Below, piece by piece: positions 32,594 to 56,608 of a stretch of DNA of 58,249 nucleotides. The notes under the pieces were generated by a model. It ran no database searches. It saw only the letters and a program-made list of their open reading frames with translations, and was not told the DNA's origin. This DNA comes from a virus. Numbering within the stretch: position 1 is the stretch's first letter; each line of letters begins with the position of its first letter. Both the position numbers and the translations under genes were made by a program. Where the stretch lies: the IMG/VR virus record IMGVR_UViG_3300027736_000053, positions 1 to 58,249 of that record; one strand, 5' to 3'.

Positions 32594-32899
32594 ATGGATA
32601 CACAGCAATTAATTAGCGAAACAAAAGCCCGATTTAGTCACAATTCTGCTAAAGCATATTTAAAAGACAAATTTACTAGCAAACTTATCGTTGCTGAACA
32701 AGGAGGTCTTTGGACGGCTAAGCCAGAATTAATATCTTTTCTTGGCACTACTAAATCAACAACATTAATAATAATTGATAATTTTGAGAATCCGGTAAAA
32801 GTTAATCGGGAAGAACTACTTAATAAACTTGTTGATACTTATAATACCGCAATGACCGACTGGTATGTTGAATGGACTGAACTAGAGAAAAAACGATGA
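32594..32899 (+). CDS. Conserved small phage protein, unknown function
   Basis: A 101-residue, mostly helical protein: DTQQLISETKARFSHNSAK, YLKDKFTSKLIVAEQGGLW, a hydrophobic TTLIIIDNF strand, and a helix with NKLVDTYNTAMTDWYVEW ending EKKR. I recall similar short proteins next to fibre or baseplate genes of marine T4-like phages, without a known role. AGGAG five bases before the ATG is one of the best ribosome binding sites in the window. Its stop overlaps the next start by ATGA, so it leads a coupled block. A fibre assembly or chaperone role is possible from position only. Confidence 0.75.
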   Translation: MDTQQLISETKARFSHNSAKAYLKDKFTSKLIVAEQGGLWTAKPELISFLGTTKSTTLIIIDNFENPVKVNREELLNKLVDTYNTAMTDWYVEWTELEKKR

Positions 32900-33699
32900 G
32901 TAAAGGCGCATTATTATTTGCGTTTAATAGTCCAAAATATAATTATTTTGAAATGGCAGTAGCAACTGCTAAACGAATAAATCATTTCTTGGATTTACCG
33001 GTTACTATCGTTACTGATATTAACTCTATGCCCATTAAACAATTATATAAATTTGATAATGTTGTGTTGACTACCGGCGACAAAACCAACATTCGTGAAC
33101 ATAGTATATGGTTAAATAAAGGAAGATATAGAGCATATGAGTTTAGTCCGTATGATGAAACTATATTATTAGACACTGATTATATGATAAATTCTAATGT
33201 TTTATTAAAAACATTTGATACTTGCATTGATTTTTGTTGTCATGATACCACTAGTTTTCTGATGAATCCCGGCGTATCACAAGAAGTATTAAGTATATAT
33301 AGTTTTAAAACACTTTGGGCTACTGTAATTACTTTTAAAAAAACACAAAGAGCAAAACATATATTTGAATGTTTAGAAATGGTACAAACTAATTATGATC
33401 ATTATGCTAATATTCATAATTTTATAGGCGGAGTGTTTAGAAATGATTATGCATTAACCTTAGCATTAAGAATTGCTAACGGGCATTGTGATGAAGCACA
33501 TGATGTTATACCATGGAATTTAACTCATGTAGGAAAAAACACATCTATTTACAAAAATTCAAACGATGAATTTAACAGTGAATATACTTGCATGTTTGAT
33601 AATTGGCAACGAGGTAAAATCCGTAAAGAATACATTACTATTACAGATACTGATTTTCATTGTATGAATAAAGATAACTTTGTGGATTTAATTAAATGA
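32896..33699 (+). CDS. GT-A-type glycosyltransferase-like protein
   Basis: A 267-residue protein with a Rossmann-like start (ALLFAFNSPKYNYFEMAVA), a strand at VTIVTD (36-41), and an acidic DTD at 93-95 in YDETILLDTDYM. This fits the DxD metal/nucleotide-sugar site of GT8-like GT-A enzymes. It has no membrane segment or signal peptide, so it acts in the host cytoplasm. The next protein is a diverged paralogue with the same layout. Start and stop are ATGA-coupled on both sides. Donor and acceptor sugars cannot be told. Family assignment is by motif and predicted fold only. Confidence 0.65.
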   Translation: MSKGALLFAFNSPKYNYFEMAVATAKRINHFLDLPVTIVTDINSMPIKQLYKFDNVVLTTGDKTNIREHSIWLNKGRYRAYEFSPYDETILLDTDYMINSNVLLKTFDTCIDFCCHDTTSFLMNPGVSQEVLSIYSFKTLWATVITFKKTQRAKHIFECLEMVQTNYDHYANIHNFIGGVFRNDYALTLALRIANGHCDEAHDVIPWNLTHVGKNTSIYKNSNDEFNSEYTCMFDNWQRGKIRKEYITITDTDFHCMNKDNFVDLIK

Positions 33700-34499
33700 T
33701 ACACTCTAAAGGATTTGTTATATTGGCTCAAAATACAGTAGAAACTGACTATGTATTATGTGCTGTTGCATTGGCAAAAAGTATTAAACGAGTAATGCCT
33801 GATTCGTCTGTAACTTTAATTAGTAATTCTCTATATGTTAAATCTAACTATATTGATAATGTTATTCCGCTACCACACGGCGATTTAGATGAATCTGGAA
33901 AATGGAAACTTGTAAATGATTGGCAAGTATATGAAGCAAGCCCATATGAATATACAATCAAGTTAGAAGCGGATATGTATATACCTAAATCAATTGATTA
34001 TTGGTGGGACACTTTGCAACATAGAGATGTTGTAATTTCACATACTATACGAGATTTTAAAGGGGTCATATCTAATAATACAACTTATAGAAGATTTACT
34101 CAAGATAATAATTTACCAAACTGTTACAATGCTATTACTTATTTTAAAAAATCAGATACCGCCAAACAATTTTTTGAAATTGTTAGAAATGTATTTGAAA
34201 ATTGGAATGAGTATAAAAATATTTTAAAATGTAACCCATTAGAAAACGTTTCTACTGATTGGGCATATTCAATTGCATGCCATATACTTGGTAAAGAAAA
34301 AACTCTGTTACCAGGATTTGATGAAATGAGTATGGTACATATGAAACAATATATAAATGGACTGTTAACAGAAAATTGGACTGATACATTGGTGTATGAA
34401 GTATTGTCGGATAAATTAAGAATAAATTCGTACACCCAATCATATCCATTTCATTATCATATAAAGTCATTTGCTGACAAACTACTAACTAATATATAA
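33696..34499 (+). CDS. GT-A-type glycosyltransferase-like protein, paralogue
   Basis: 267 residues, the same length as the previous protein and aligned with it: QVYEASPYEYTIKLEADMYIP here against RAYEFSPYDETILLDTDYM there. The acidic triad is EAD at 91-93 rather than DTD, so metal binding may be altered. N-terminal strands FVILAQN and SVTLISNS and helix VLCAVALAKSIKRVM fit the nucleotide-binding half. It overlaps the upstream gene by ATGA and the downstream gene by TAATG. Likely role: addition of a sugar to a glycan or to a virion protein. The specific reaction is unknown. Confidence 0.62.
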   Translation: MIHSKGFVILAQNTVETDYVLCAVALAKSIKRVMPDSSVTLISNSLYVKSNYIDNVIPLPHGDLDESGKWKLVNDWQVYEASPYEYTIKLEADMYIPKSIDYWWDTLQHRDVVISHTIRDFKGVISNNTTYRRFTQDNNLPNCYNAITYFKKSDTAKQFFEIVRNVFENWNEYKNILKCNPLENVSTDWAYSIACHILGKEKTLLPGFDEMSMVHMKQYINGLLTENWTDTLVYEVLSDKLRINSYTQSYPFHYHIKSFADKLLTNI

Positions 34500-34852
34500 T
34501 GGATAATACCGAAAATTATACAATATTTTGGGAAGCCCCAAAGTTGATCCCGCCTGAATTTAGATTATATTATGATGATAAGGGCAATGTAATATGCTAT
34601 TCTGGGTCTAGCGAAAAATTAGAAGGAAATTATATAGTAATTGATGCGATGACATTTGCTATGGGTAGACCCGATGTACGAGTAATTGACGGAAGAATAT
34701 CAACAGTTGCTGTTGGGTGTATCGTAACAAAATTAATGCCAAATGAGCATGATGGCATAGAATGTTGCAATGAAGATATTAGTATTGTGTTATCAGCATC
34801 ATATACAGGTAAAAAACAAAAATGGAAATTAAACACATATGAACTCACTTGA
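34499..34852 (+). CDS. Conserved phage protein of unknown function
   Basis: 117 residues, starting with a TAATG overlap. Motifs: NYTIFWEAPKLIPPEFRLYYD, GNYIVIDAMTFAMGRPDVRV, IDGRIST and EDISIVLSASYTGKKQKWKL. Mostly beta, no membrane segment, no catalytic motif. I recall similar small proteins within glycosyltransferase/radical SAM neighbourhoods of marine phages. Its C-terminal 14 bases overlap the next gene. A role as accessory subunit is only a guess. Confidence 0.7.
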   Translation: MDNTENYTIFWEAPKLIPPEFRLYYDDKGNVICYSGSSEKLEGNYIVIDAMTFAMGRPDVRVIDGRISTVAVGCIVTKLMPNEHDGIECCNEDISIVLSASYTGKKQKWKLNTYELT

Positions 34853-35795
34853 CGAAATAGTTGATGTTGCAGATTTAGATTGCATATATTTGTCATATGA
34901 TGAACCACAAAAAGAAGAATTTTGGCTTAAGATAAAGAACATGGTTCCGTGGGCTAAACGAGTAGATGGAGTAAAGGGCAGTGATGCAGCACATAAAGCC
35001 GCAGGAGAAGCAAGCGATACTGAACGTTTTATTCTAATTGACGGTGATAATATGCCTGATGAAAAGTTTTTCAATATGCAATTAAATTTCACAGGAAAAG
35101 ATCCTAAATACAAATTAGCACAATATCGTTGGAAAGCAATTAACAGTATCAACGGATTGAGGTATGGCAATGGCGGAATGAGTTCATGGACTAAAACATA
35201 TGTACGTGAAATGAAAACACATGAGAATCAAACAGAAGGAGATGTTTCACGTATTGCTGACTTCTGCTTAGATAGTAAAGATAGTTTATATTGGTCAATG
35301 TATGATTGCTATAGCACAACATATCCTAATCAGACATCATTCCAAGCATGGAGAGCCGGGTTTCGTGAAGGGGTAAAGATGAGTTTAGACCGTGGTATGC
35401 GCCCAACCGTTAATGAATTCAAAGAAACAGTGGCTACACGAAATCTAAACAATTTGACTATTTGGCAAAACGTAGGCATGGATGTAGATAACGGGCAGTG
35501 GGCAATCATGGGAGCACGTATGGGAACTCATATGACTATGCTTACTGATTGGGATGTACATGCTGTTCAATGGTTTGATAACTATATTGAAATGTGGCAA
35601 CATGTTAAAGATGAAGATCCATTAATATTGTCAGAAACATATGGCATTGAATTAAAAACAAAATTAGGACTACCGATGTGTATATTAGATGCAGACCAAA
35701 GCCAGTTTTTCAAACGACACTATAATGCTGATAAGTACAATGTTGGTCCATTGGTAACCGAGATGGATGTAATAAGAAAGATTGAAGGATGGTAG
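34839..35795 (+). CDS. Glycosyltransferase-like protein with DGD motif
   Basis: 318 residues. After a short N-terminus, IYLSYDEPQKEEFWLKI (16-32) and VPWAKRVDGVKG precede ERFILIDGDNMPDEKFF, with DGD at 68-70, which fits a DxD motif of GT2-like GT-A enzymes. The rest (FREGVKMSLDRGMRPTVNEF, GMDVDNGQWAIMGARMGTHM) is less typical. No membrane segment. It overlaps both neighbours, by 14 and 7 bases, and sits just upstream of the radical SAM series. It may also be a non-catalytic relative. Substrate unknown. Confidence 0.6.
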   Translation: MNSLDEIVDVADLDCIYLSYDEPQKEEFWLKIKNMVPWAKRVDGVKGSDAAHKAAGEASDTERFILIDGDNMPDEKFFNMQLNFTGKDPKYKLAQYRWKAINSINGLRYGNGGMSSWTKTYVREMKTHENQTEGDVSRIADFCLDSKDSLYWSMYDCYSTTYPNQTSFQAWRAGFREGVKMSLDRGMRPTVNEFKETVATRNLNNLTIWQNVGMDVDNGQWAIMGARMGTHMTMLTDWDVHAVQWFDNYIEMWQHVKDEDPLILSETYGIELKTKLGLPMCILDADQSQFFKRHYNADKYNVGPLVTEMDVIRKIEGW

Positions 35796-37207
35796 ATAGA
35801 AATATGCGTTCAGATGCTAGTGAATCTAAAAGAATTCAAGATATTAAAATAAAAATTGAAACTGAAGTTGGTTCCACCTATTGTTTAGCCAAATGGCATC
35901 ATGTAACCATGTATTTGCAAACAGGAGAGACACATAGTTGTTATCACCCAAAACCTCATAAAATTCCATTACATGAATTAATTAATAATCCGTCAGCCTT
36001 ACATAATACTGAACAAAAAAAAACTGAACGTAAATTAATGTTGGAAGGCAAAAAGCCTTCCGGGTGCCAATACTGTTGGAATATTGAGGCTATGGGCCCA
36101 GACTACATTAGTGATAGACATATACGTAACGGGAGTATTTTTACAGAAGAACGGTATGAACAAACAGTTAAAGGACCATGGAATCAAAATATTAATCCAG
36201 AGTACTTAGAAATAAATTTTGGTAATGAGTGTAATTTTAAATGTGGATACTGTCATCCAAAGTATTCTAGTAGATATTTTAATGAAATTAAAGAGTATGG
36301 CCCGGTTACTACCGTAACTAATCACAGATGTGATATTAATTGGATGACATTATATCAACGAGAAGAAGAAAATCCGTATGTAGATGCATTTTGGAAGTGG
36401 TGGCCTGACTTACGCAAAACATTGAATATAATGCGTGTAACTGGAGGTGAACCCACGATGCATCGTAGCACCTGGCAATTATTAGATACTTTGGAACAAG
36501 ATCCCGCGCCTTGGTTAGAATTAAATATCAATAGTAACTTAGGTACAAAAACTATATTATTTGAAAGATTGAGCGATACTGTAAAAAAATTATGTGATAC
36601 AAAAAAGTTAAAATCTTTTATGTTATTTACAAGTTTAGATACCTGGGGTGACAATGCTGAATATATACGGACCGGACTAGATTTAAAATTATGGGAAACT
36701 AATTTTCATACATATTTAACTAAAACTGATAGTCCTATATCATTTATGATAACATTTAATATCTTTAGTGTAACTACATTTACATCTTTGTTGCAGAAAC
36801 TATTAGAATGGCGAGAACAATATCCATGGTATAATCATAGAAATAGTCATAGAATTAGGTTTGACACTCCGTACCTTCGGGAACCAATTCAATATGATAT
36901 GAATATATTACCTAAGGAAGATTTTATGCCATATATGTATGCATCATTAAAGTTTATGCAAGATAATGTAGATGACACCGCTAGCAATAAATTTACTACC
37001 ATTGAATATGAAAAATTTAAACGTGTAGTTGATTATATGGCTGAAACCTTTTACCCCGAAAGTAAATTGATAGAAGGTCGTAGAGATTTTTATAATTGGG
37101 TTAATGAATTAGATGAACGCCGCGACACTGATATGTTAAAAATATTTCCTGAGATGTTATCTTTTTATAAACTATGTCAAACTATAAATCAACTTAATCC
37201 ATTATGA
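35789..37207 (+). CDS. Radical SAM protein with N-terminal SPASM-type motif (1 of 4)
   Basis: 472 residues from ATG 35789; ATG 35804 (residue 6) is an alternative start. An N-terminal C32-x13-G46-x4-C51 and C93-x2-C96 set matches the SPASM/twitch pattern that normally follows the core. The radical SAM C148-x3-C152-x2-C155 (CNFKCGYC) comes next, then GGEP at 219-222 for SAM binding. The core cysteines should bind a [4Fe-4S] cluster that cleaves SAM; the N-terminal set may bind a second cluster. SPASM relatives modify peptides or other substrates. It starts inside the end of the glycosyltransferase-like gene and ends ATGA-coupled to the next radical SAM gene. Substrate unknown. Confidence 0.82.
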   Translation: MVDRNMRSDASESKRIQDIKIKIETEVGSTYCLAKWHHVTMYLQTGETHSCYHPKPHKIPLHELINNPSALHNTEQKKTERKLMLEGKKPSGCQYCWNIEAMGPDYISDRHIRNGSIFTEERYEQTVKGPWNQNINPEYLEINFGNECNFKCGYCHPKYSSRYFNEIKEYGPVTTVTNHRCDINWMTLYQREEENPYVDAFWKWWPDLRKTLNIMRVTGGEPTMHRSTWQLLDTLEQDPAPWLELNINSNLGTKTILFERLSDTVKKLCDTKKLKSFMLFTSLDTWGDNAEYIRTGLDLKLWETNFHTYLTKTDSPISFMITFNIFSVTTFTSLLQKLLEWREQYPWYNHRNSHRIRFDTPYLREPIQYDMNILPKEDFMPYMYASLKFMQDNVDDTASNKFTTIEYEKFKRVVDYMAETFYPESKLIEGRRDFYNWVNELDERRDTDMLKIFPEMLSFYKLCQTINQLNPL

Positions 37208-38406
37208 AAACTCTTGATCAAAATGTTATTTGTCTGATGCCATGGATCCATACACATATATGGCCCAATGGTGATGCATTTCCTTGCTGCATGAGTGATT
37301 CCAAAGAAGTATTTGGAAATGTTCATAAAGAATCTCTTACTAACTTAATGAATAATAACAACTACAAAACGATAAGAAAACAAATGCTTAACGGAGAAAA
37401 ACCCACAGCATGTTCACGATGTTATGAGTTAGAAGACACCGCAGACGCTAAGACATTGCGTATAACCAGTTTACAAGTTTTTAAACATTATTTACCTTAC
37501 TTAACTGAAACTAAAGAAGATGGCAGCATTAATGACTTTAAAATGAGATACTTAGATATTAGATTCAGTAATTTGTGCAACATGAAGTGTAGAACCTGTG
37601 GGCCCAATTTAAGTAGTACTTGGTATGATGACCAAATAAAAATACATCCAAACTATATAACATCTAAATTCATTGATTTAAAATCTAACCCCAATTTCAT
37701 GGATGAGTTGATGCCACATTTAGATACAATAGAAGAAGTATATTTTGCTGGTGGTGAAGCATTAATAACACCTCAACACTATGAGATTTTAGATTATTGG
37801 TTATTAAATGGTCGTACAGATATTAAATTACGATATACTACTAATTTTAGCAATTTTCGGTTTAAAAATCGTTCTATATTGGATTATTGGAAAAAATTTA
37901 AGGATGTTAGAGTTGCTGCTAGTTTGGACACACATGGTAAACTTGCTGAATATGCAAGAAAAGGAACTAATTGGGATGATATTGTGTTGAATCGACAACA
38001 AATGTTACTAATTTGTCCTGACGTTTATTTTGAAATTACCCCTACAGTCAGTATTTTTAGTGTACATAGTTTATTTGAATTTCACCGATCTTGGGTAGAG
38101 CAGGGCTTAGTTAATATAAATAGTATACGGATTAATATCCTAACACATCCTCGCTATTTTTCAATTACTATTTTACCAAATAGTGAAAAAGAAAAGATTA
38201 GAGAAATTTACGCTGAGTATACTCACTGGTTAATTAGCAACAACGCAGCCAAAAGTGTAATACATGCTGTTAACGGAATTATAAATTATATGGATAGTGC
38301 CGACCATACTATTTTATTACCGGAATTTAAAAACCAAATTAAACTTATTGATAATATTAGAAATGAAAATTTTGCAGGACTTTACAATTGGATACAAAAT
38401 ATATGA
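37204..38406 (+). CDS. Radical SAM protein with N-terminal SPASM-type motif (2 of 4)
   Basis: 400 residues. C10-x12-G23-x4-C28 (CLMPWIHTHIWPNGDAFPC) and C70-x2-C73 form the SPASM-like N-terminal part; C125-x3-C129-x2-C132 (CNMKCRTC) is the radical SAM core, followed by AGGEA for SAM binding near residue 182. C29 directly follows C28, so a CC pair is present. It is ATGA-coupled upstream and downstream. Relatives with this reversed order are, as I recall, filed as 'twitch-domain radical SAM' in phage genomes; no function is established there. Confidence 0.82.
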   Translation: MKTLDQNVICLMPWIHTHIWPNGDAFPCCMSDSKEVFGNVHKESLTNLMNNNNYKTIRKQMLNGEKPTACSRCYELEDTADAKTLRITSLQVFKHYLPYLTETKEDGSINDFKMRYLDIRFSNLCNMKCRTCGPNLSSTWYDDQIKIHPNYITSKFIDLKSNPNFMDELMPHLDTIEEVYFAGGEALITPQHYEILDYWLLNGRTDIKLRYTTNFSNFRFKNRSILDYWKKFKDVRVAASLDTHGKLAEYARKGTNWDDIVLNRQQMLLICPDVYFEITPTVSIFSVHSLFEFHRSWVEQGLVNINSIRINILTHPRYFSITILPNSEKEKIREIYAEYTHWLISNNAAKSVIHAVNGIINYMDSADHTILLPEFKNQIKLIDNIRNENFAGLYNWIQNI

Positions 38407-39800
38407 CATCTTTTAACGAAGTGCAGAATGAAGTTGCACCAAACTTATCACCCAATTCAAAAATCCATTGGTTAATTAATAATCAATCTAAGTTTTGTAC
38501 GTTGCCATGGATAAATTTAAACACTAATACAAATGGTAATTTAAAATTATGCTGTAGTATACAAGAGAATACTTTTATTTTAAATGATGACGAAATTCCA
38601 TTTAATTTTGGATATCATAATATAGAAGATATATGGAATAGTTCTTATATGAAATTAGTACGTAATAATACTAAAACTAATGTAAACGTGTTAGAATGCG
38701 AAGAGTGCTATTCAATAGAAAAATTTTCAGGTCACAGCCCTAGGATAGGACAAAATAAACTATGGGGAGACAAACTATATACTGATAACTCATTGTCTAC
38801 CGCGTTGAATGCAGTATTAGAAAAAGATGATAGTAATAATCATTTAACGCAGCTGCCGGTTAGTTTGGAACTTAGGCTAGGTAATCAATGTAATTTACAA
38901 TGTATAACATGTTGGGGAATGAGTAGTTCATTATTACATCAAGAAAGGTCTGAATACTTAGATAAGAACTATCTAGATAGTGATTCGTTGAGTTGGTTAA
39001 AACATAAGTGGGAAAAAGACCGAATTAATGTAGAATCAACTGATGTTCGTAATTGGTTTGAAACGGATATATTTTATAATAACTTTAAAAAAATTGCTAC
39101 AAATCTACGTAGATTATACACGACTGGAGGCGAACCCACATTAATTAAAGCTAATTATAAAATGTTTGATATGTTGCTAGATGCTAATAATACAACATGT
39201 AAGATAGAGTTTACTAGTAATATGACAAGCTGGAATCATTCATTTTATAGTAAATTAGAAAAATTTGAAAATGTTGAAATACAAATGAGTATTGATGGAA
39301 TTGGTAAAGTTGGGGAATATATAAGATATCCAACTGATTTTACTAAGGTTAGAGAAAATATTGACAAGGTTGTTGCATTATCTTCTACTAGACCGGGCTG
39401 GACAATTAACTGTTATACGGTACTACAAGCACTAAATTTTAAACAAGTAATGCCTATTTGGAGTGTATTATATATGCTATCACTTAAATATAATAAAAAC
39501 ATTGGATGGTGGCCAATAACATTAGTGCATCCAAATCATTTAGCATTACATGCAATACCATATGATATTAGAGAAAACTTTATTAAACAAGTTACTACAC
39601 AATCAAAAAATTTCAGAATATCCTATGAAGGACAACCAAATAGATTTGTAATATCATCTCATACATTTGATACATATAAAAATGCTGTACTTAATTCTCC
39701 CTATGATGAAACTTTTAATAGTCAACTAAAATCTTTTATTGAATTTAATGATAAACATCGTAAGTTAAATGGGGTTGAATTATTTAAGGATATAATATGA
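38403..39800 (+). CDS. Radical SAM protein with N-terminal SPASM-type motif (3 of 4)
   Basis: 465 residues from ATG 38403. An upstream TTG at 38388 is less likely because ATG 38403 forms an ATGA overlap with the previous stop, like its neighbours. C32-x12-G45-x4-C50, C51, and C99-x2-C102 make the N-terminal cluster motif. The core C163-x3-C167-x2-C170 (CNLQCITC) is followed by TGGEP near residue 243. The length between the two cysteine sets is greater than in its paralogues. Cytoplasmic, no membrane segment. Substrate unknown. Confidence 0.82.
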   Translation: MTSFNEVQNEVAPNLSPNSKIHWLINNQSKFCTLPWINLNTNTNGNLKLCCSIQENTFILNDDEIPFNFGYHNIEDIWNSSYMKLVRNNTKTNVNVLECEECYSIEKFSGHSPRIGQNKLWGDKLYTDNSLSTALNAVLEKDDSNNHLTQLPVSLELRLGNQCNLQCITCWGMSSSLLHQERSEYLDKNYLDSDSLSWLKHKWEKDRINVESTDVRNWFETDIFYNNFKKIATNLRRLYTTGGEPTLIKANYKMFDMLLDANNTTCKIEFTSNMTSWNHSFYSKLEKFENVEIQMSIDGIGKVGEYIRYPTDFTKVRENIDKVVALSSTRPGWTINCYTVLQALNFKQVMPIWSVLYMLSLKYNKNIGWWPITLVHPNHLALHAIPYDIRENFIKQVTTQSKNFRISYEGQPNRFVISSHTFDTYKNAVLNSPYDETFNSQLKSFIEFNDKHRKLNGVELFKDII

Positions 39801-40768
39801 TAGATAGATTAATAGCAATTAAACCAATGCATAGTCCTTATATTAGTATTACATGGCAGGTAAGTGATTTTTGTAATTTTAAATGTAGTTATTGCAATCC
39901 GGGTAATTGGGCTGGAAAAAATATAAAAAAAAACTCTGAGGAAGATTTAGATAAGATAAAACAAAATTTAAATATAATATTTTTATCCTATGAGACTAGA
40001 GGATATAAAGGATTTAAATTTTTTTTTAGCGGAGGAGAGCCTACTATTTGGCCACATTTACTTCCGCTTATTGAGTGGTTAAAACAACGACTAGATGATC
40101 CTCAAATTGGAATTAACACAAATTTAAGTACTAGTACAGCCTGGTGGAAAGAAAATTATCACTTGTTTCACGATGTAGTTGCTAGTTATCATATTGATTT
40201 TGCAAATACCCCTAGGTACTTAGATAATTTGCTTTTTTTACAAGACAAAGTAAATTACTTATGTAGTAGAATGATGATGCAAGAAAATAGATTTGATGAA
40301 GTGATTTTATTTGGGGAAAAAGTAAAAAAAATGTTGCAAAATTATAATTTAGAATGGGTACCGTTGTTTGATGACATTAATATAAATGTAGGACCATGGA
40401 AATATAGTGAGCCTAGGATGTATGAATTTTTTAAATCTCATAGTTTTGAATCACAAACTGCAATCAATAAACCAGTTGGAAGTAAATGGAAAATGGCTAG
40501 TAAAGAAATTTATAGTTCAGGAAATGAAAAAACATTAAATGGTAATAGAATTGTTGCAGAACGTAATAACTTTTTTTTAGGATGGAAATGTTATGTTGAT
40601 GAAAGTTTATTTATAAATAATACAGGATACATTACCGCCGCGAGCTGCGGTCAAGGACCCTCATTGGGAAATATATATAACATTGTTAATTTAATAGCCG
40701 AACCAATCATTTGTAAAAAACATCAATGTACTTGCGGAACTGATATACTTATAACAAAGGAAATTTAA
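39797..40768 (+). CDS. Radical SAM protein with conventional C-terminal SPASM-type motif
   Basis: 323 residues, the shortest of the series. The radical SAM core C26-x3-C30-x2-C33 (CNFKCSYC) lies at the N-terminus, SGGEP follows near residue 78, and cysteines at 265, 284, 306, 311 and 313 with G277 form a C-terminal SPASM/twitch-like set. This is the usual domain order, opposite to its four neighbours. A start without an N-terminal extension is supported by the ATGA overlap. It could be a partner enzyme for the others. Substrate unknown. Confidence 0.82.
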   Translation: MIDRLIAIKPMHSPYISITWQVSDFCNFKCSYCNPGNWAGKNIKKNSEEDLDKIKQNLNIIFLSYETRGYKGFKFFFSGGEPTIWPHLLPLIEWLKQRLDDPQIGINTNLSTSTAWWKENYHLFHDVVASYHIDFANTPRYLDNLLFLQDKVNYLCSRMMMQENRFDEVILFGEKVKKMLQNYNLEWVPLFDDININVGPWKYSEPRMYEFFKSHSFESQTAINKPVGSKWKMASKEIYSSGNEKTLNGNRIVAERNNFFLGWKCYVDESLFINNTGYITAASCGQGPSLGNIYNIVNLIAEPIICKKHQCTCGTDILITKEI

Positions 40769-42025: not shown

Positions 42026-42026
42026 G

Positions 42027-43223: not shown

Positions 43224-43225
43224 TT

Positions 43226-45897: not shown

Positions 45898-45901
45898 TGT
45901 G

Positions 45902-45915
45902 TATTTATATAAATA
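45902..45915. promoter_or_regulatory. Palindromic divergent late promoter TATTTATATAAATA
   Basis: A 14-base perfect palindrome containing TATAAATA on both strands (plus 45908-45915, minus 45909-45902, overlapping by two bases). It lies between the minus-strand gene starting at 45897 (four bases away) and the plus-strand gene at 45921 (five bases away). It is the whole 23-base intergenic gap apart from a few bases, so it is the only candidate promoter for both genes. Confidence 0.7.
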
Positions 45916-45920
45916 GCATA

Positions 45921-47806: not shown

Positions 47807-47820
47807 TATGAAGGTATGTA

Positions 47821-47828
47821 TATAAATA
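47821..47828 (+). promoter_or_regulatory. T4-type late promoter box TATAAATA
   Basis: A perfect octamer ending four bases before the ATG at 47833. No Shine-Dalgarno can be placed between a T4-like start site and the ATG. Confidence 0.6.
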
Positions 47829-47832
47829 TACA

Positions 47833-49197: not shown

Positions 49198-50095
49198 CGA
49201 TTTAAGAGATACTGTAGTTACGGGAGATAATGTCATTATTGCTTTGGGTGATAGTTTTACACAAGGAATAGGTGCATATAGTATAGAATCATGGAAAAAA
49301 TCATTAGAAATTGGTAAGGGTAATGTTTTTAATCTGTCCGGCAAATATTTTAGAGAAGAACAACATAAAAATAATTGGGCCACTCAGTTGAGAGATAATC
49401 ATTTACCGGACTATAAAGTTTGGAATTTAGGTATAAATGGTACAGGTAATAGAGGTACTATAAAAGAAATGTACTTAAATCCGTTGCCAACTAAGTTGGG
49501 TAATGTTATAGTAATATTAATGGCTACGGGACTTGAACGATTTGATTTTCTTAAAAAAAATAGAGTAACCTGCGGACTTTACAATCATTCTAAGTGGCAA
49601 ACAATTTGGCCGGTTACCTCAGAACGAGGACTAGTTTCGGAAATAGAAAAAGTTTATTTAAATGAATTATATTCTCCTAGGGTAGTAGCAACTGAATTTT
49701 TATTAAATGTGGCTGAAGCCCAATATTTTTGTAAAGCTAATAACTATAAATTTATGTTCGCTTCAGCATTTGATTCAACTATATACAAACGCGGCTTAAT
49801 CGATGACTTAGATGACGACCCAGATTATATAAATATTATTGATTGGGATAATTTAATAACACCCGGTATAACAAAAACATACAAATCATTCAAAACATAT
49901 ATGGATTTATTATGTTTTCATGAAAATGATACCAGATTTAGAACGTTCTTTGAATTACAAAATAATAACATAGTAGAAAACATGCAATTACCATTAAAAT
50001 ATATAACTCCATGTGGTCATTGGACTATTGAAGGGCAAGCATTTGTTGCATCTAATCTGGCTGATGAAATAAAAACTAGAAATCTAGAAATCTAG
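49190..50095 (+). CDS. SGNH-hydrolase-like protein 3
   Basis: 301 residues from ATG 49190, chosen because AGGA (49181-49184) lies six bases upstream and the start overlaps the previous stop; an upstream TTG at 49154 is less likely. GDSFTQG with S22 is block I. LGINGTGNRG (~83-92) with N and G may serve as blocks II/III. At the C-terminus H277 lies in TPCGHWTIEG, where the usual Asp three residues before the His is Pro. So a Ser-His dyad is possible, or activity is lost. Substrate unknown. Confidence 0.65.
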   Translation: MFNDLRDTVVTGDNVIIALGDSFTQGIGAYSIESWKKSLEIGKGNVFNLSGKYFREEQHKNNWATQLRDNHLPDYKVWNLGINGTGNRGTIKEMYLNPLPTKLGNVIVILMATGLERFDFLKKNRVTCGLYNHSKWQTIWPVTSERGLVSEIEKVYLNELYSPRVVATEFLLNVAEAQYFCKANNYKFMFASAFDSTIYKRGLIDDLDDDPDYINIIDWDNLITPGITKTYKSFKTYMDLLCFHENDTRFRTFFELQNNNIVENMQLPLKYITPCGHWTIEGQAFVASNLADEIKTRNLEI

Positions 50096-50104
50096 CAACT
50101 TAAT

Positions 50105-51106
50105 ATGAATATATTTATAACCGGGGTCGCAGGATTTTTAGGAAGTCATTTGGCTGACCGAATGTTAGCACTTGGGCATGTAGTAAGTGGTAATGATTCT
50201 CTAATAGGCGGACATATACACAATATTCCAAAAGATATAACATTTTTTAATATTGATTGCTGTGATTTTAAATCAATGTCTAACATAATGAAAAACATAG
50301 ATATTGTGATTCATACTGCGGCTACAGCACATGAGGGATTAAGTGTATTCAGTCCGTCATTTATTACTCGTAATATTTTTGAAGCCAGTGTTAGTACAAT
50401 TAGTGCAGCAATTTCTTGTAAAGTTAAACGCTTTTTATTTTGCAGTAGCATGGCTAGGTACGGAGAACAGGTTCCGCCGTTTATAGAAGAAATGGTAAGT
50501 ATTCCCGTGGACCCGTACGGTATTGCTAAAGAAGCGGTTGAAAAAACATTGCGTCTACTTGCTAACACACATGGTATGGAATGGAATATTGCTGTCCCAC
50601 ACAACATTATAGGCCCTAGACAAAAGTATGATGATCCATTTCGTAATGTCATGAGTATTATGATTAATCGTAATCTACAAGGTAACCCGGCAATAGTTTA
50701 TGGCGACGGAAGTCAAACACGATGTTTTAGTTATGTAGATGACTGCATCAATTGTTTAGAGAAGATGGCACTATCTCCTGGTATTACCAATCAATTAATT
50801 AATATTGGTCCAGATGAAGGTGTGGTTACTATTAAAACACTTGCTAACATGGTTGCAGAGGAATGCGGATTTACCGGAGATATTGTGTATATGCCTGACC
50901 GGCCTCAAGAAGTCAAATACGCTTACTGTAGTTCTGATAAAGCAAGAGAACTACTTGGATATAAAACAACAGTAGATTTAGCAACTGCGATCAAATACAC
51001 AGCAGACTATATCCGTGCCTCAGGGACTAGACCGTTTGATTATTCATATCCTTTAGAAATCATAAATAATCTAACTCCAAAAACTTGGTCTGACAGGTTA
51101 ATTTAA
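50105..51106 (+). CDS. NAD-dependent sugar epimerase/dehydratase (extended SDR)
   Basis: 333 residues. G7-x2-G10-x2-G13 (GVAGFLG) binds NAD(P); HTAATAHEG fits the N-x-A-A-like strand; S114/S115 in FCSSMARYG with Y138-x3-K142 (YGIAK) form the catalytic set; IGPRQKYDDP and GDGSQTRCFSYVDDC are typical of nucleotide-sugar epimerases and dehydratases. UDP-glucose 4-epimerase-like or UDP-glucuronate-related enzymes have this size. The precise reaction cannot be told. It lies two genes before the UDP-sugar dehydrogenase, which suggests a shared nucleotide-sugar pathway. Confidence 0.88.
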   Translation: MNIFITGVAGFLGSHLADRMLALGHVVSGNDSLIGGHIHNIPKDITFFNIDCCDFKSMSNIMKNIDIVIHTAATAHEGLSVFSPSFITRNIFEASVSTISAAISCKVKRFLFCSSMARYGEQVPPFIEEMVSIPVDPYGIAKEAVEKTLRLLANTHGMEWNIAVPHNIIGPRQKYDDPFRNVMSIMINRNLQGNPAIVYGDGSQTRCFSYVDDCINCLEKMALSPGITNQLINIGPDEGVVTIKTLANMVAEECGFTGDIVYMPDRPQEVKYAYCSSDKARELLGYKTTVDLATAIKYTADYIRASGTRPFDYSYPLEIINNLTPKTWSDRLI

Positions 51107-51116
51107 AAAGGGATAT

Positions 51117-51821
51117 ATGTCCAATAAACAACATTTGCTATTGCATTGGGTACTTGATACCCCAAACAAACAATTAATTTGTAAAGTTAACGATGACTTA
51201 ACATACATTGCTCATAATGGCGGGCATGATGGATTTACAAAAATATACAAAGGTGTTACTAGCGAAGTAACATTGGTTGAATGGGTTCCTGATGAAAAGT
51301 TATGGATTAGTGAACAGTACGGTGAGCAAGTAGGCTATTATCAACCTGATCCTAATCGAGTAAAAAAACATCCTATACGTGGTTATGATCAAACTTGCTT
51401 TAATGGATTAGGACCTGACGGAGAATATCTTGATCATATGCAACGTATGCAGATCCTAATGGAAGGCTACGACCAGGCTACAATTTGGCACAAAATTAGG
51501 TCTACTGACCGAACCCCATTTTTTTTATTCAGTACACCTGATAAAGGATTGACTATATACAAACGAGCCCCTGCTGAAAGAGTTAGATATCCTGAGGCTC
51601 AACAAGATTCCAGCCTTTGGTGGCATGATCATCCACAACCCTGTGCTCAACAACCCTATAGCAAGAGTTATCAACTGAGTTCATACAATGAATTAGAAGC
51701 CGACGGCTGTCCTAAATCTATTGTTGATAAGTGCAAACTTGGCGAGTGGGATGCACCCGAACATCCAGAATTACAAGTATACTATATTTATCCAAAAACT
51801 ATAGAAGAAAATTTTAAATAA
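51117..51821 (+). CDS. Conserved phage protein of unknown function
   Basis: 234 residues, ATG preceded by a strong AAAAAGGG. N-terminal half beta-rich (TYIAHNGGHDGFTKIYKG, VTLVEWVPDEKLWISEQYG), central Asp/Gly-rich GYDQTCFNGLGPDGEYLD, then helix HMQRMQILMEGYDQATIWH, and a His/Trp/Pro-rich C-terminal region (SLWWHDHPQPCAQQPYSKSY). His and Cys could bind a metal, but I know no family with this arrangement. It sits between the two nucleotide-sugar oxidoreductases. It could act in the same pathway, but that is guesswork. Confidence 0.7.
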   Translation: MSNKQHLLLHWVLDTPNKQLICKVNDDLTYIAHNGGHDGFTKIYKGVTSEVTLVEWVPDEKLWISEQYGEQVGYYQPDPNRVKKHPIRGYDQTCFNGLGPDGEYLDHMQRMQILMEGYDQATIWHKIRSTDRTPFFLFSTPDKGLTIYKRAPAERVRYPEAQQDSSLWWHDHPQPCAQQPYSKSYQLSSYNELEADGCPKSIVDKCKLGEWDAPEHPELQVYYIYPKTIEENFK

Positions 51822-51844
51822 CTTACAATGAAATAGAAATAACC

Positions 51845-53041
51845 ATGAAAAAAATAGCAATGATTGGGGTTGGGAAACTAGGACAAGACTGTGCTGAAGT
51901 TATGGCACAATACTATGATGTAGTAGGATATGATATCGCAGCCCGTGTAACAACTTTTCCTATGAAAAATTCCATACAAGAAGCCGTTCTAGAAAAAGAT
52001 ATTATATTTATTGCAGCCCCTACTCCACATGACCCCATGTATGGTGGAGAAACTCCCTCTAGTCAGTTACCTAATAAAGATTTTGACTATTCTATAGTTA
52101 CTAACATCTTAGCAGAAGTTAATAAGTATGTAAATAAAAGCCAATTAATTGTATTGATTAGTACTGTGTTACCGGGGACAGTTCGTAATATATTAGAACC
52201 TTGCATTACTAATGCTAGATTTATTTACAACCCATATCTTATAGCTATGGGTACTACTAAGTGGGATATGGTAAATCCTGAAATGGTTATCATTGGGACC
52301 GATGATGGTAGCGTGACCGGCGATGCAAAAGAATTAATTGAGTTCTATAAAGTGTTTATAGAGAATGATCCTAGGTATGAAGTAGGAACATGGGATGAAG
52401 CCGAATCTATTAAAATCTTCTATAATACTTTTATATCTACAAAAGTTGCACTGGTCAATATGATACAAGATGTTGCTGAAACAAATGGCAACATCAACGT
52501 AGATGTTGTAACTAATGCATTATCAAACAGCACACATAGGATCACTGGACCTGCATATATGATAGCCGGTATGGGAGATGGCGGAGCGTGTCATCCTAGA
52601 GACAATATTGCATTGCGTTTTTTAGCAAATAGATTAGACTTAGGATATGATCTGTTTGATGCTATAATGAAAGCAAGAGAAGTACAGGCAGAACGAATGG
52701 CTAAAAAATGTTTATCAATGGGCAAAAATATAACAATTATTGGAAAAGCATACAAGCCGCGTGTAGCGTATACCAATGGTAGTTCTAGTATGTTGGTAGG
52801 ATATTATATTGAATCTTTGGGCGGCACTGTTAATTATTATGATGAAAATACCGGCGATATGGATTTAAAAGAGCAGTGGACAGAAGTATACCTAATAGGA
52901 TATTGGGAACCGTATGTTACTGAAATTGTAAATAAAATAATTAATCAAAATAATATAATGATAATTGATCCATGGAGAAAAATTAAAATTAACTCTAATA
53001 ATATAATACATTACGGCAATACTCGGGGTAGGTCTACTTAA
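51845..53041 (+). CDS. UDP-sugar 6-dehydrogenase (UDP-glucose/GDP-mannose dehydrogenase family)
   Basis: 398 residues. N-terminal NAD site G8-x-G10-x2-G13 (GVGKLG); STVLPGT (106-112) and an E187/K190/N194/K200 set in WDEAESIKIFYNTFISTK; catalytic C249 in GGACHPRDN (family consensus GG-S/A-C-F/L-P-K-D); C-terminal GKAYKPRVAYTNGSSS corresponds to the UDP-binding region. All key residues I can place are present. It likely oxidises UDP-glucose or a relative to the uronic acid in two NAD steps. The start has no strong Shine-Dalgarno; the stop overlaps the next ATG by one base. Confidence 0.88.
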   Translation: MKKIAMIGVGKLGQDCAEVMAQYYDVVGYDIAARVTTFPMKNSIQEAVLEKDIIFIAAPTPHDPMYGGETPSSQLPNKDFDYSIVTNILAEVNKYVNKSQLIVLISTVLPGTVRNILEPCITNARFIYNPYLIAMGTTKWDMVNPEMVIIGTDDGSVTGDAKELIEFYKVFIENDPRYEVGTWDEAESIKIFYNTFISTKVALVNMIQDVAETNGNINVDVVTNALSNSTHRITGPAYMIAGMGDGGACHPRDNIALRFLANRLDLGYDLFDAIMKAREVQAERMAKKCLSMGKNITIIGKAYKPRVAYTNGSSSMLVGYYIESLGGTVNYYDENTGDMDLKEQWTEVYLIGYWEPYVTEIVNKIINQNNIMIIDPWRKIKINSNNIIHYGNTRGRST

Positions 53042-54165
53042 TGATGAGTTATATTGAATCTGTGTTAATAGAAATTTGGCCTGAATTAATGCCGCATTTA
53101 AATACATTACACATTATTGATTGTCAATTACATACTTCTTTTCCGTTAACAGAAAACAGTATAGTTGTAAAAAATATTACAGATGCTATAGCAAAGGGAA
53201 AATTAAAAATTTTATTTTATATGCCTTCTGAAGGCCCGGATATTGTAACAGTGACTAAACTTAATCAAATTGCCGACCTACTTCAAGGTATATGTAATTC
53301 TACTGATTTAATATATTTAACAGGGGCAGTAGACGGTAAAAAAGCATATGAATCGGTATATATATCAGAAAATTGGAAAAATAAACTTGTAGTAATTACA
53401 GTCAATGCCAATTTTCATGGCAAATTGTTACCCCCCACTCTACCACATAGTAGATTGGGATATCATATTAAATATAAAGAAAAAATATTTTTATGTTTTA
53501 ATAGAATGCCTAGACAGCACAGATTGGATTTGTTAGAAATGATGTTAACACATAATTATGTCAATTTAGGGTTTTACTCATTTTCTTTTGACTTGATAGA
53601 GTCTCTAGCAGTTCATCATTACTTTGACGAACCCGATAGATATATAACTATAAAAAATAATAAAAATATGTTTCCATTAGTATTAAATATGACATCAGAA
53701 AGATCAAATCCAATAGATTTAATTATTGACGATTTTCAATATTTTGAAGAAAGTTATTTTAGTATAGTTACAGAAACAGCATTTTATGATAAACAATCCC
53801 ATGGTATTAATTCTACTTTTATAACTGAAAAAACAATGAAGTGTTTTACAACATTTCATCCATTTATTATGATAGGACGGCCCCATTCATTATTAGCATT
53901 AAAAAAATTAGGATATCAAACATTTAATCCTATGATTGATGAATCATATGACTCTATTGAAAATGATGATGACCGATTATCAATGATATTTTTAGAAATT
54001 CATAAATTAATGTCAAAGACCCCTGCCGATTGGATTGTTTGGCAAACACAAATCAAAGAAATAGTTATACATAATAATAATATTTTTAAGTCATCGGGTA
54101 CTAATTATAGTTCAATAAATAATATTAAAGATGTTATATACGGGGATACATATAATTTTAGATAG
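53041..54165 (+). CDS. Putative GT-B (GT10-like) glycosyltransferase paralogue 4
   Basis: 374 residues; start codon overlaps the previous stop (TAATG), with a second ATG directly after. LCFNRMPRQHRLDLLEMML has R158-Q-H-R161; FITEKTMKCFTTFHPFIMIG has T262-E263-K264, then LALKKLGYQTFNPMIDESYD. Closest in layout to the gene at 42027. Cys at 152 precedes the R-P/Q-H-R element. No membrane segment. Its coupling to the UDP-sugar dehydrogenase suggests it may use the uronic acid donor, which is an inference from position. Confidence 0.57.
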   Translation: MMSYIESVLIEIWPELMPHLNTLHIIDCQLHTSFPLTENSIVVKNITDAIAKGKLKILFYMPSEGPDIVTVTKLNQIADLLQGICNSTDLIYLTGAVDGKKAYESVYISENWKNKLVVITVNANFHGKLLPPTLPHSRLGYHIKYKEKIFLCFNRMPRQHRLDLLEMMLTHNYVNLGFYSFSFDLIESLAVHHYFDEPDRYITIKNNKNMFPLVLNMTSERSNPIDLIIDDFQYFEESYFSIVTETAFYDKQSHGINSTFITEKTMKCFTTFHPFIMIGRPHSLLALKKLGYQTFNPMIDESYDSIENDDDRLSMIFLEIHKLMSKTPADWIVWQTQIKEIVIHNNNIFKSSGTNYSSINNIKDVIYGDTYNFR

Positions 54166-54173
54166 GAAAAATC

Positions 54174-54272
54174 ATGTTTATAATGCGTTGGGTTAAAAAT
54201 ATAATTAGAGAATATAAACATCGTAAACGACTTAAAGAGTTACGGAAAAGAGATCCGTTTATATACAAATGA
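54174..54272 (+). CDS. 32-residue basic microprotein
   Basis: ATG 54174 to TGA 54272, with AGGA at 54164-54167 six bases before the start. Its stop overlaps the next ATG as ATGA (54269), exactly like the coupled genes elsewhere in this block. The product has a hydrophobic N-terminus (MFIMRWVKNIIREY) followed by a very basic helix (KHRKRLKELRKR) and ends DPFIYK. It could be an amphipathic membrane- or nucleic-acid-binding peptide, or mainly serve to couple translation. I recall short phage proteins ending RKRDPFIYK-like, but have not checked. Confidence 0.75.
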   Translation: MFIMRWVKNIIREYKHRKRLKELRKRDPFIYK

Positions 54273-55126
54273 TAATATATTGCAATGGGGATAGTTTTAC
54301 GGCAGGAGCAGACTTAGGTGATTACTTATTACCTGGCTACCCCGGCGGAACACCCACGAGCCCATGGGAGCCCGGGCAGCTGCCGCCCAGCATTGAGATA
54401 TGTAAAAATTGGCATAAAAAAACACATGATACCTCGCACCAACTTGAGAAATTAAGACAAATTAAAATGGAGGAGATACGAAATGAAGAATTTAATATGG
54501 CCTGGCCAAATAAATTACATAAATTATCGGGATATCCAGTTATAAATAATGCACAGAGTGGTTCTTCAATGGATCGAATAGCTAGAACCACAGTGTCTGA
54601 TTTAATTTCTTTAAAAGAAGAACATGCTAATATTATATCAATAATTGGACTTACTGGAATAGATAGATCGGAATTACCCTCTACTCATAAAAGTAAATAT
54701 AAGATGTGGGCAGATATAATTCATCATAGACCTAATCTTCATCCTGACTATAAGGGTATCCTTGATTTTAAATTACAATATGAAACAGATTATCATTGTT
54801 ATACAAATTTTTATAAAAATGTAATTCTAGTAAAGAATTTTTGCTTTGTAAACAACATACGATTGTACTTTGTATTACCTATGCCGCTGCCCCCTAAATT
54901 TTGGCGCAATGAGTCAAGTTCACCCAATTCTGATGTAAAATTTTCTTATATTGATATAAAAAATATAAAAAATTTAGAAAACTATGCTAATTTAGTGCCT
55001 GATATAAATATGACTGATATTGCAATGAGTTGCAAGCTGCCGGAAGTTTATACGCCCGGCGGTCATTTTGCAGAATCTATACATGAGATTGTTGCTGATA
55101 AACTTTTTAATATAATTAAACAGTAA
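54269..55126 (+). CDS. SGNH-hydrolase-like protein 4
   Basis: 285 residues, ATGA-coupled to the microprotein. Block I is CNGDSFTAG with S9 at the N-terminus. NNAQSGSSMDR (about 94-104) matches the block II/III area with Gly and Asn. IGLTGIDR lies in the next strand. The C-terminal His is H266 in TPGGHFAES; as in SGNH protein 3 the usual Asp at -3 is replaced by Pro. The Pro/Gly-rich insert near residues 20-45 (LLPGYPGGTPTSPWEPGQLPP) is unusual. No signal peptide. Confidence 0.65.
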   Translation: MIIYCNGDSFTAGADLGDYLLPGYPGGTPTSPWEPGQLPPSIEICKNWHKKTHDTSHQLEKLRQIKMEEIRNEEFNMAWPNKLHKLSGYPVINNAQSGSSMDRIARTTVSDLISLKEEHANIISIIGLTGIDRSELPSTHKSKYKMWADIIHHRPNLHPDYKGILDFKLQYETDYHCYTNFYKNVILVKNFCFVNNIRLYFVLPMPLPPKFWRNESSSPNSDVKFSYIDIKNIKNLENYANLVPDINMTDIAMSCKLPEVYTPGGHFAESIHEIVADKLFNIIKQ

Positions 55127-56608
55127 ATGAATTATATAGGAATTAGTAATGGATTTCATGATGCCGGTATTACAGTACTTGATAACATTGGAAATATTCT
55201 ATTTGCCGGACATAGTGAACGATATAGTAAACAAAAGCACGATAAAGAATTGTCTCCGCTGTTATTGACAGACGCTCTATCATATCTTACTGACAAGGAA
55301 TATGAACTTCATTATTATGAAAGACCATGGCTTACTTCATTACGACAACTTAGGGCCGGACAACCAGGTGACTTCAGAACTATTAAAAATCGTATTGGTA
55401 AAAAAATAGTAAATCAGTTTAATACTAAAAAAATAACAACACATGCTCATCATCTTAGTCATGCTGCTGCAGGATTTCAAACAAGTCCCTACGAAAAAGC
55501 CACAGTGGTAATAATAGACGCTATAGGAGAATTTGATACTATTACTATATGGAATGCATATTATGATATGTTTGGTGTCGCACAATATGATAAACAATGG
55601 AGTATGCAATACCCGGATAGTATTGGTCTATTTTATTCAGCAATGACTGAACGAGTTGGGTTGCGCCCACTTGATGAAGAATATATTTTAATGGGTATGG
55701 CAGCATACGGAGAACCAATTCATCTGAATGAAATGATGGATGAAATAGTAGATAGCAAAGATATATTAACCTTCAAGCAAAATCTACATACTGGTGTTAG
55801 TAAAGATTTCTTACAAGATGCGGATCATATGAACATTGCTAGTAGTAGTCAACATTTAGTAGAACAGATGATTGCTAGAGTAATGAGTAAAGCTAGAATA
55901 ATAGGCCATAGTAAAAATCTAGTATACGGCGGCGGGGTAGCATTAAATTGTTTGGCCAATAGACTGCTGGGGAATTTCTATGAAAATATTTGGATTATGC
56001 CTAATCCCGGTGATTGCGGTAGTTCTTTAGGGGCTGCTGCATTGGGTTACCGTAAACAACTTAATTGGAAAAATGCATATTTAGGATATAATATTAGCGG
56101 TCCATATCCTGTTGATAAATTATTAAATGAACTATCTACTAATGGCATTGCTGGAGTTGCTAATGGTCGGGCTGAATTTGGACCTAGGGCATTAGGAAAT
56201 CGTAGTCTATTAGCGGACCCTAGAGGAAATACAATAAAGGATAAGGTAAATGAAATCAAACGCAGACAAAAATTTCGACCTTTTGCTCCGGTCATTCTCG
56301 AGGAGTTTGCTTATCAATATTTTAATATGCCTACTCACTGGGATAATAGTAGGTATATGCAAGTCATCAGTACCTGCAGGAATCCTGAGTTATTTCCTGC
56401 TATTGTACACCATGATGGGACTAGCCGTGTACAAACTGTCCCAAAAGATGGCTCAGGAATTAGAGAACTATTAGAGAAATGGTATGTTTTAACAGGATGC
56501 CCGATGTTATTAAACACTAGTTTAAATATTCGAGGTAACCCTGTAGTAAATGACAGAATAGATGCTGACCACTTTGAAATATTATATGGGGTAACTATTT
56601 GTTCTTGA
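55127..56608 (+). CDS. O-carbamoyltransferase (NodU/CmcH/TobZ family)
   Basis: 493 residues, somewhat shorter than the usual ~570 of this family. It carries THAHHLSHAAAGF with H108, H109 and H112 (metal and carbamoyladenylate site of the Kae1-like half), GGGVALN with G268-G270, GRAEFGPRALGNRS at 347-360 and FRPFAPVI, all signatures of NodU-type enzymes. The C-terminal YrdC-like part is reduced, ending in LLNTSLNIRGNPVV. It would transfer a carbamoyl group from carbamoyl phosphate, with ATP, to a sugar hydroxyl. ATG follows the previous stop with no gap. In this neighbourhood a sugar substrate is most likely. Confidence 0.88.
   Translation: MNYIGISNGFHDAGITVLDNIGNILFAGHSERYSKQKHDKELSPLLLTDALSYLTDKEYELHYYERPWLTSLRQLRAGQPGDFRTIKNRIGKKIVNQFNTKKITTHAHHLSHAAAGFQTSPYEKATVVIIDAIGEFDTITIWNAYYDMFGVAQYDKQWSMQYPDSIGLFYSAMTERVGLRPLDEEYILMGMAAYGEPIHLNEMMDEIVDSKDILTFKQNLHTGVSKDFLQDADHMNIASSSQHLVEQMIARVMSKARIIGHSKNLVYGGGVALNCLANRLLGNFYENIWIMPNPGDCGSSLGAAALGYRKQLNWKNAYLGYNISGPYPVDKLLNELSTNGIAGVANGRAEFGPRALGNRSLLADPRGNTIKDKVNEIKRRQKFRPFAPVILEEFAYQYFNMPTHWDNSRYMQVISTCRNPELFPAIVHHDGTSRVQTVPKDGSGIRELLEKWYVLTGCPMLLNTSLNIRGNPVVNDRIDADHFEILYGVTICS

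Follow-up and report, generated by a model that had tools for sequence, protein, structure and literature searches.

The pelagimyophages, which are T4-like phages of SAR11, carry a host-recognition cluster of tail fibers, glycosyltransferases (GTs) and cassettes of radical S-adenosylmethionine (radical SAM) genes that has been read as modifying the host-surface lipopolysaccharide (LPS) (PMC7029224). Jumbo cyanophage clusters of GT and carbamoyltransferase genes have been described with radical SAM genes left unmentioned (PMC7824862), virion glycosylation was mentioned for the four core GT groups of aquatic "moraphages" (PMC12619734), and the T4-like marine viral genome TARA_ERS488813_N000010 has 12 radical SAM genes, which were treated as Fe-S metabolism with no glycan link (PMC5332604). 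The nearest cultured analogue of the locus studied here is in Vibrio phage K566/K567, whose island VPK566_0302-0314 (L015:14470-27256) intersperses two GT8 genes and one GT4-like gene among four twitch radical SAM genes, two of which score above the NF033640 cut-off; it was published only as a replaced anti-defense island with a glycosyltransferase and a lipid A gene (PMC12028318). The open-access literature that we found mentions phage radical SAM genes only as metabolic or variable-island genes. Here, we analyzed positions 1 to 58,249 of the IMG/VR record IMGVR_UViG_3300027736_000053 (the window, meaning this whole stretch of 58,249 nucleotides), a 58-kb fragment of the record of an uncultured, aquatic tailed phage. 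Its island (32,594-58,249) sets six radical SAM genes amid GT-like, SGNH-like, epimerase, UDP-sugar dehydrogenase and carbamoyltransferase genes and adjoins fiber/baseplate genes.

Like the pelagimyophage cluster, the window island is a large variable island with tail fibers and GTs in the structural region; several GTs, a UDP-glucose dehydrogenase and, in some genomes, radical SAM cassettes are also common to both. In the pelagimyophages, however, the radical SAM genes are additions that set two genomes apart, and no ordered module of several paralogues with fixed GT partners was described (PMC7029224). Richness in radical SAM genes is shared with TARA_ERS488813_N000010, the whole records in our comparison holding up to about 20 (G001 and G006, about 20 each). 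K566/K567 differs from the window in gene order, with about 25% identity, and its interleaving of radical SAM and GT genes is independent of the window module. We found no description of a conserved, ordered radical SAM/GT module in the open-access literature; islands of this type are known, and it is the ordered module of several radical SAM enzymes that appears to be undescribed. We found that a conserved core, g10 to g15 behind the fiber genes, and an ordered set of distinct radical SAM enzymes, g16 to g19, often plus a cobalamin (B12)-dependent one, are inherited together with GT-like genes. We regard the island as real, conserved and functionally coherent, and we infer its chemistry and its acceptor. 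Our preferred reading, held with somewhat less than even confidence, is a cytosolic phage-encoded glycoconjugate pathway with radical tailoring, a conserved core and variable decoration, likely acting on a fiber or baseplate protein. The genes are as follows (window coordinates, strand, assignment).

27781-28401, plus: g5, virion protein, conserved (86-89% identical in five relatives); lies upstream of the island
28431-29660, plus: g6, fiber-like; weak match to Peptidase_G2 (autoproteolytic chaperone)
29674-30624, plus: g7, fiber-like; present in 79 of 80 g14 loci
32594-32899, plus: g10, 101-amino-acid orphan, first of the coupled genes; all 72 adjacent g10-g11 pairs overlap
32896-33699, plus: g11, GT-A-like; motif LLDTDY
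33696-34499, plus: g12, GT-A-like by motif, distant paralogue of g11
34499-34852, plus: g13, 117-amino-acid orphan; longer proteins occupy this position in other phages
34839-35795, plus: g14, GT-A-like by motif and fold matches; heads radical SAM clusters
35789-37207, plus: g15, N-terminal-twitch radical SAM enzyme (NF033640)
37204-38406, plus: g16, N-terminal-twitch radical SAM enzyme (NF033640); auxiliary-cluster domain matches BtrN
38388-39800, plus: g17, N-terminal-twitch radical SAM enzyme (NF033640); start TTG 38388 or ATG 38403
39797-40768, plus: g18, radical SAM enzyme; C-terminal Cys-rich extension (C265, C284, C306, C311, C313)
40769-42025, plus: g19, N-terminal-twitch radical SAM enzyme (NF033640)
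42027-43223, plus: g20, GT-B-like; same family as g30
43226-43975, plus: g21, SGNH-like; weak DUF6071
43972-45897, minus: g22, B12-binding radical SAM enzyme; Radical_SAM and B12-binding above Pfam cut-offs
45861-46706, plus: g23, SGNH-like; weak DUF6071; probable start ATG 45921
46697-47806, plus: g24, possible GT-B; C-terminal motif similar to g20/g30
47833-49197, plus: g25, GT-B-like; g20/g30 family
49154-50095, plus: g26, GDSL/SGNH-like; below cut-off
50105-51106, plus: g27, NAD-dependent sugar epimerase/dehydratase; Pfam above cut-off
51117-51821, plus: g28, protein without an assigned family
51845-53041, plus: g29, UDP-sugar dehydrogenase (Pfam); present in five of five mapped relatives
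53041-54165, plus: g30, GT-B-like by predicted fold
54269-55126, plus: g31, SGNH-like; weak DUF6071
55127-56608, plus: g32, O-carbamoyltransferase (Carbam_trans domains); accessory
56658-58247, plus: g33, protein with Trp-rich repeats, truncated at the end of the window

A scan for relatives of g14 gave at least 587 loci, and synteny was counted in the best 80, several of which are near-duplicates of one phage, so that the effective number is smaller. Upstream of g14 in these loci, g11 and g12 were present in 80 of 80, g6 and g7 in 79, g10 in 74 and g13 in 72; on the downstream side, 68 of the 70 testable loci had a radical SAM gene at a distance of no more than 4 kb. Within the window, 8 of the 11 gene junctions between 32,594 and 43,975 overlap and the other 3 abut within 0 to 2 nucleotides, in keeping with an earlier note on this sequence that had called nearly all of them overlapping; the overlapping junctions g10-g11-g12-g13-g14-g15 are kept across loci. 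The block extends beyond 56,608 into g33 (56,658 to the window end). The five relatives that we mapped (G001, G003, G004, G005 and G007) share the run g4-g5-g6-g7-g10-g11-g12-g13-g14-g15-g16-g17-g18-g19, with an additional radical SAM gene between g15 and g16 in three of the five, and after g19 they have g20, g29, g30 and a second B12-dependent radical SAM gene. Furthermore, a placement test on 11 whole records of 178 to 400 kb found a twitch radical SAM gene no farther than 3 kb from 14 of the 20 g14-like genes, where chance predicts 2.9; none of 20,000 random placements reached this number. Clusters headed by double-domain or paired g14-like genes occur in G001, G011 and G018; in G001 and G011, this is a second cluster, separate from the one linked to the fibers. 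The island is not a chance pile-up, and the earlier idea of a single system is supported: downstream of the same fiber genes, dozens of divergent phages carry the gene set together and in order, not scattered.

The gene content downstream varies. In G001 and G003, to which the window is closest, g21, g23 to g28, g31 and g32 are missing, and other relatives have g32 or different SGNH/GT genes there. The carbamoyltransferase, the epimerase and several of the SGNH and GT-B genes are accessory, and a constant pathway plus variable finishing enzymes is a reasonable reading. As to the carbamoylated uronic-acid glycan that had been suggested, uronic acid is plausible for the group (the dehydrogenase is present in all five mapped relatives) and carbamoylation for only some of its members. 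We also observed that a contig filed under a Rhodobacteraceae metagenome-assembled genome (MAG), L279, is a phage contig with the entire fiber-GT-radical SAM cassette. At L020:1697-5519 (G001:140697-144522), GT4, metallophosphoesterase, phosphate-binding-protein-like and porin-like (by eye) genes adjoin the cassette and are possibly host-derived.

The claim of six radical SAM genes is borne out by NF033640, by Pfam Radical_SAM and B12-binding and by the motif CxxxCxxC, which is retained in all six proteins (families were assigned with Pfam, NCBIfam and PHROGs). Four of them, g15, g16, g17 and g19, are members of NF033640 (N_Twi_rSAM; 301, 385, 253 and 276 bits, NCBIfam cut-off 170), a family whose architecture places an auxiliary iron-sulfur domain ahead of the radical SAM domain. 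Each has this N-terminal domain with four cysteines (g15, C32/51/93/96; g16, C10/28/70/73; g17, C37/55/104/107; g19, C7/25/75/78). When a profile of g16 and its relatives was compared with the PDB, BtrN was the sole match at E ≤ 0.01, via the auxiliary domain (E = 5.5 × 10−6), and the four BtrN cysteine positions are found in all four twitch proteins of the window. Membership in NF033640, the match to BtrN alone and the four cysteines argue that g15 to g17 and g19 are of the twitch type, for which a single auxiliary cluster is predicted, and not two-cluster SPASM enzymes. The description of the set as five SPASM-type proteins and one cobalamin-type protein thus stands for the cobalamin enzyme and falls for four of the five others: a SPASM domain is C-terminal with about seven cysteines, and theirs lies at the N-terminus and has four ligands. 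The Pfam SPASM match of g16 is above cut-off but covers residues 10 to 74. g18 scores 39 bits against NF033640 and is not a member, but it passes Pfam Radical_SAM (31.2 bits versus a cut-off of 29.5), and g22 is a cobalamin-dependent radical SAM protein with B12-binding and Radical_SAM at 37.7 and 39.3 bits, above the Pfam cut-offs. The further B12-dependent protein downstream in relatives has 735 to 748 amino acids. Two narrower assignments were rejected: g22 falls outside the KedN5 C-methyltransferase subfamily (NF033712; 232 bits versus a cut-off of 700, with the N-terminal two thirds covered), and a viperin (pVip)-like antiviral role for g15 to g18 is not supported (NF038283, 16.7 to 35 bits versus a cut-off of 180; PADLOC matches weak and partial).

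BtrN is a twitch radical SAM dehydrogenase of butirosin synthesis and acts on an aminocyclitol (PMC9012708; PDB 4M7S/4M7T). The likeness by sequence is confined to the auxiliary domain, with matching cysteine positions, and whereas this domain is C-terminal in BtrN, it precedes the radical SAM domain in the window enzymes. This match bears on two alternatives to a glycoconjugate pathway. The radical SAM enzymes might alter side chains of a virion polypeptide (crosslinks, epimerized or methylated residues), with the GTs glycosylating those sites, a fiber maturation resembling that of ribosomally synthesized and post-translationally modified peptides (RiPPs). Fiber genes do adjoin the island, most characterized SPASM-type relatives target peptides (PMC9012708), and the B12-dependent radical SAM protein of relatives best matches a model for RiPP C-methyltransferases, though its 109 bits do not reach the cut-off of 282, but the substrate of BtrN counts against peptides, no conserved short precursor gene was seen (g10 and g13 being the only small proteins that are conserved), the g13 position is not one family, and versions of the module that lack fibers have no evident protein substrate adjoining. 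We consider this alternative improbable. Fainter still is the prospect that the island makes a diffusible sugar-derived specialized metabolite, aminoglycoside-like, rather than a glycoconjugate. The combination of a BtrN-like domain with carbamoyltransferase, epimerase, B12-dependent radical SAM and GT genes is typical of specialized-metabolite clusters, and a jumbo cyanophage cluster with carbamoyltransferases has been predicted to make a secondary metabolite (PMC7824862); the constant place behind the fiber genes and the decoration genes that differ among close relatives speak against it, and no exporter or resistance gene was recognized in the island.

Next, we looked into how the radical SAM genes are related across loci. 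In a tree of 159 twitch radical SAM proteins, the g15, g17 and g19 groups have 99 to 100% SH-aLRT support, g16-like proteins fall in further groups, and members from fiber-linked and fiber-free loci share the same g16, g17 and g19 groups. The paralogues are separate orthologous clades, and their order along the loci is retained. Loci of the L224, L231 and L264 type have the order g30, g16, g16-like, B12-dependent radical SAM, g17, g18, g19, SGNH-like and adjoin a nucleotidyltransferase-like gene, some of them also a DNA-ligase-like gene (both by eye). In these and in L217, the radical SAM set and a GT-B-like gene occur without a nearby fiber or GT-A gene; fibers are therefore not needed for the set to be kept, and the radical SAM genes form their own unit. 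Of 80 g16 loci, 73 had a GT-B-like gene and 51 had GT-A-like genes; among 37 close g18 loci, the respective numbers were 35 and 28. The GT-B-like protein is thus the constant partner, which argues for a sugar or glycan, rather than one particular fiber, as the radical SAM substrate. Bacterial homologues (23 loci only, most standing alone) are a poor guide to the substrate. In Bdellovibrionia MAGs (L271:9860-15809; also L270), a g16-like, a g18-like and another radical SAM gene lie beside a methyltransferase-like gene and a carbamoyltransferase, which is possibly a cellular form of the module. The second radical SAM cluster of G001 (L016:2564-19180 = G001:2564-19180) combines about ten radical SAM genes with a g14-like protein of two domains, two PP-loop proteins that resemble QueC and, by eye, an aminotransferase-like gene.

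Because g11, g12, g14, g20, g24, g25 and g30 have no Pfam match at E ≤ 1, they were called GTs from motifs and folds. AlphaFold models of g14 and g30 were built with alignments of 26 to 27 sequences. The acidic motif DGD of g14 is invariant in 27 sequences, and the best Foldseek matches of its model are GT-A enzymes (E = 10−4, TM-score only about 0.3); those of the g30 model (pLDDT 85.6) are GT-B enzymes (best E = 7 × 10−4, TM-score only 0.3 to 0.4). These models suggest that g14 is likely of the GT-A type and g30 likely of the GT-B type. Sequence comparison of g11/g12, g14, g13 and g20/g30 with solved structures gave no meaningful match, and profile comparison of g11/g12 with the K566 GT8 proteins gave a weak hint at most. 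The predicted GT-A-like trio keeps its motifs and the g14 fold matches, with low TM-scores and no Pfam family behind it. The four proteins taken for GT10-like (g20, g24, g25 and g30) are GT-B-like at best, a GT10 fucosyltransferase assignment being rejected by the lack of Pfam matches and by the fold matches of g30 to other GT-B enzymes. The four SGNH-like proteins have weak matches below cut-off (DUF6071 for g21, g23 and g31; GDSL for g26), but a relative inside the same module (L224:17430-18158) passes DUF6071. The remaining sugar enzymes that the earlier note named all score above family cut-offs, namely the epimerase g27, the dehydrogenase g29 (UDPG_MGDP_dh, NAD-binding 58.7 and central 60.4 bits; catalytic Cys in GGACHPRD) and the Nol-like carbamoyltransferase g32 (both Carbam_trans domains, 121.8 and 153.1 bits; phrog_1601, 1 × 10−92). 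A simple hydropathy scan predicted no transmembrane segments in g10 to g33; a flippase, a membrane polymerase and an enzyme for lipid initiation are thus all missing from the cassette.

In the glycoconjugate pathway that we prefer, the dehydrogenase (here also the epimerase) would convert nucleotide sugars, and the GT-A-like and GT-B-like enzymes would assemble a short glycan on the acceptor. The twitch enzymes, with their BtrN-like auxiliary domain, would carry out successive radical steps on the sugars, such as oxidation or epimerization, the B12-dependent enzymes may C-methylate, and the SGNH-like and carbamoyltransferase enzymes would attach the final groups. The acceptor, the least certain step, would be a fiber or baseplate protein encoded just upstream, with changed adsorption or shielding of the virion as the expected gain. 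The lack of a membrane protein in the cassette, together with the fiber linkage, favors an acceptor in the cytosol, for example a virion protein. Alternatively, the pathway could remodel a host surface glycan (LPS/O-antigen) during infection via cytosolic lipid-linked precursors and host export, which would block adsorption of other phages and keep released virions off debris. This is how the pelagimyophage cluster of fibers, GTs and radical SAM cassettes was published (PMC7029224), jumbo cyanophage GT clusters were given a host-surface reading too (PMC7824862), and in K566 a lipid A palmitoyltransferase (PagP) beside the radical SAM/GT island suggests a host-surface role. The cassette, however, has no transmembrane protein, initiating phosphoglycosyltransferase or flippase, and 79 of the 80 loci keep the core GT-radical SAM run linked to virion genes. 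We judge host-surface remodeling unlikely, albeit a serious contender; given the fiber-free module, the published LPS reading and the K566 PagP, the virion acceptor is therefore only moderately ahead of the host surface.

Several of these observations weigh against a glycoconjugate built on a virion protein: the fiber-free loci, the K566 PagP, the peptide targets of SPASM-type relatives and the low TM-scores of the GT models. In addition, the g5 to g7 neighbors are conserved fiber genes, and conserved adjacency in phages can mean that the structural region is co-inherited. Phage GTs often glycosylate DNA bases, and hypermodification of phage DNA would be another use for such enzymes; family searches found neither a base-synthesis nor a DNA-modification gene in the cassette, which lies in the tail region and not in the replication region, and we regard this use as highly improbable. 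A more specific form of the preferred reading is that large aquatic phages possess a dedicated assembly line of at least five non-interchangeable twitch and B12-dependent radical SAM enzymes, which would act one after another on sugars that the phage builds; the virion would then bear glycans of a new class, with modified carbon skeletons, and this kind of virion modification would have no known precedent. We put this forward as a doubtful conjecture.

Mycobacteriophage GTs are said, by Freeman et al. in 2023 (cited in PMC12619734), to glycosylate capsid and tail proteins, and we know of no radical SAM module in that system; the weak fold matches of g14 include the GT of mycobacteriophage Che8. 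Aquatic viral contigs hold many radical SAM enzymes of the NF033640 type, which, to our knowledge, have no assigned function; they form conserved ordered sets tied to GT genes. If what they make is a glycan of the virion or of the host surface, this would explain the roughly 20 radical SAM genes of some phages, chemists would gain a source of sugar-modifying radical enzymes, and phage coat chemistry would be testable in the cultured Vibrio phage K566. The K566 island also carries, besides PagP, a Tyr/Ser/Gly-rich protein.

We found no DNA nearly identical to the window among 50,697 phage records, and tblastn with g10, g13, g14, g18, g30 and g33 gave no match in the same records. The baseplate wedge gene g3 (2173-5547) has its nearest similarity, about 33% identity, in myophages of 355 to 470 kb such as GAP32, Serratia phage BF, XbC2 and Phosso. 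Contigs related to the window reach 211, 231 and 303 kb, so its source is probably a jumbo phage. The T4-type late promoter TATAAATA was not enriched compared with 8-mers of the same letters (9 of 256 genes; best permutation, 13) and occurred 15 times within the window against 23 expected, so that late expression gains no support from it; sigma-70 and terminator scans were around chance level. Two overlapping TATAAATA motifs, one per strand, lie exactly between the divergent genes g22 and g23 (45902-45915), an overall nonsignificant placement.

Between the baseplate and fiber genes, g4 is a single open reading frame of 7,346 amino acids (5570-27610). Its counterparts in the stretches fetched from relatives have about 3,800 to 5,100 amino acids, and g4 size may differ strongly among phages. 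g8 and g9 (30632-32545) contain repeats with WFGGG and DRITYATDTATASVRGPLS and are missing in the five mapped relatives. The Trp-rich repeats of g33 include DFSWHPD and FIYEFGTQWQKTGGPRY, and in two relatives, a C-terminal g14-like domain follows them.

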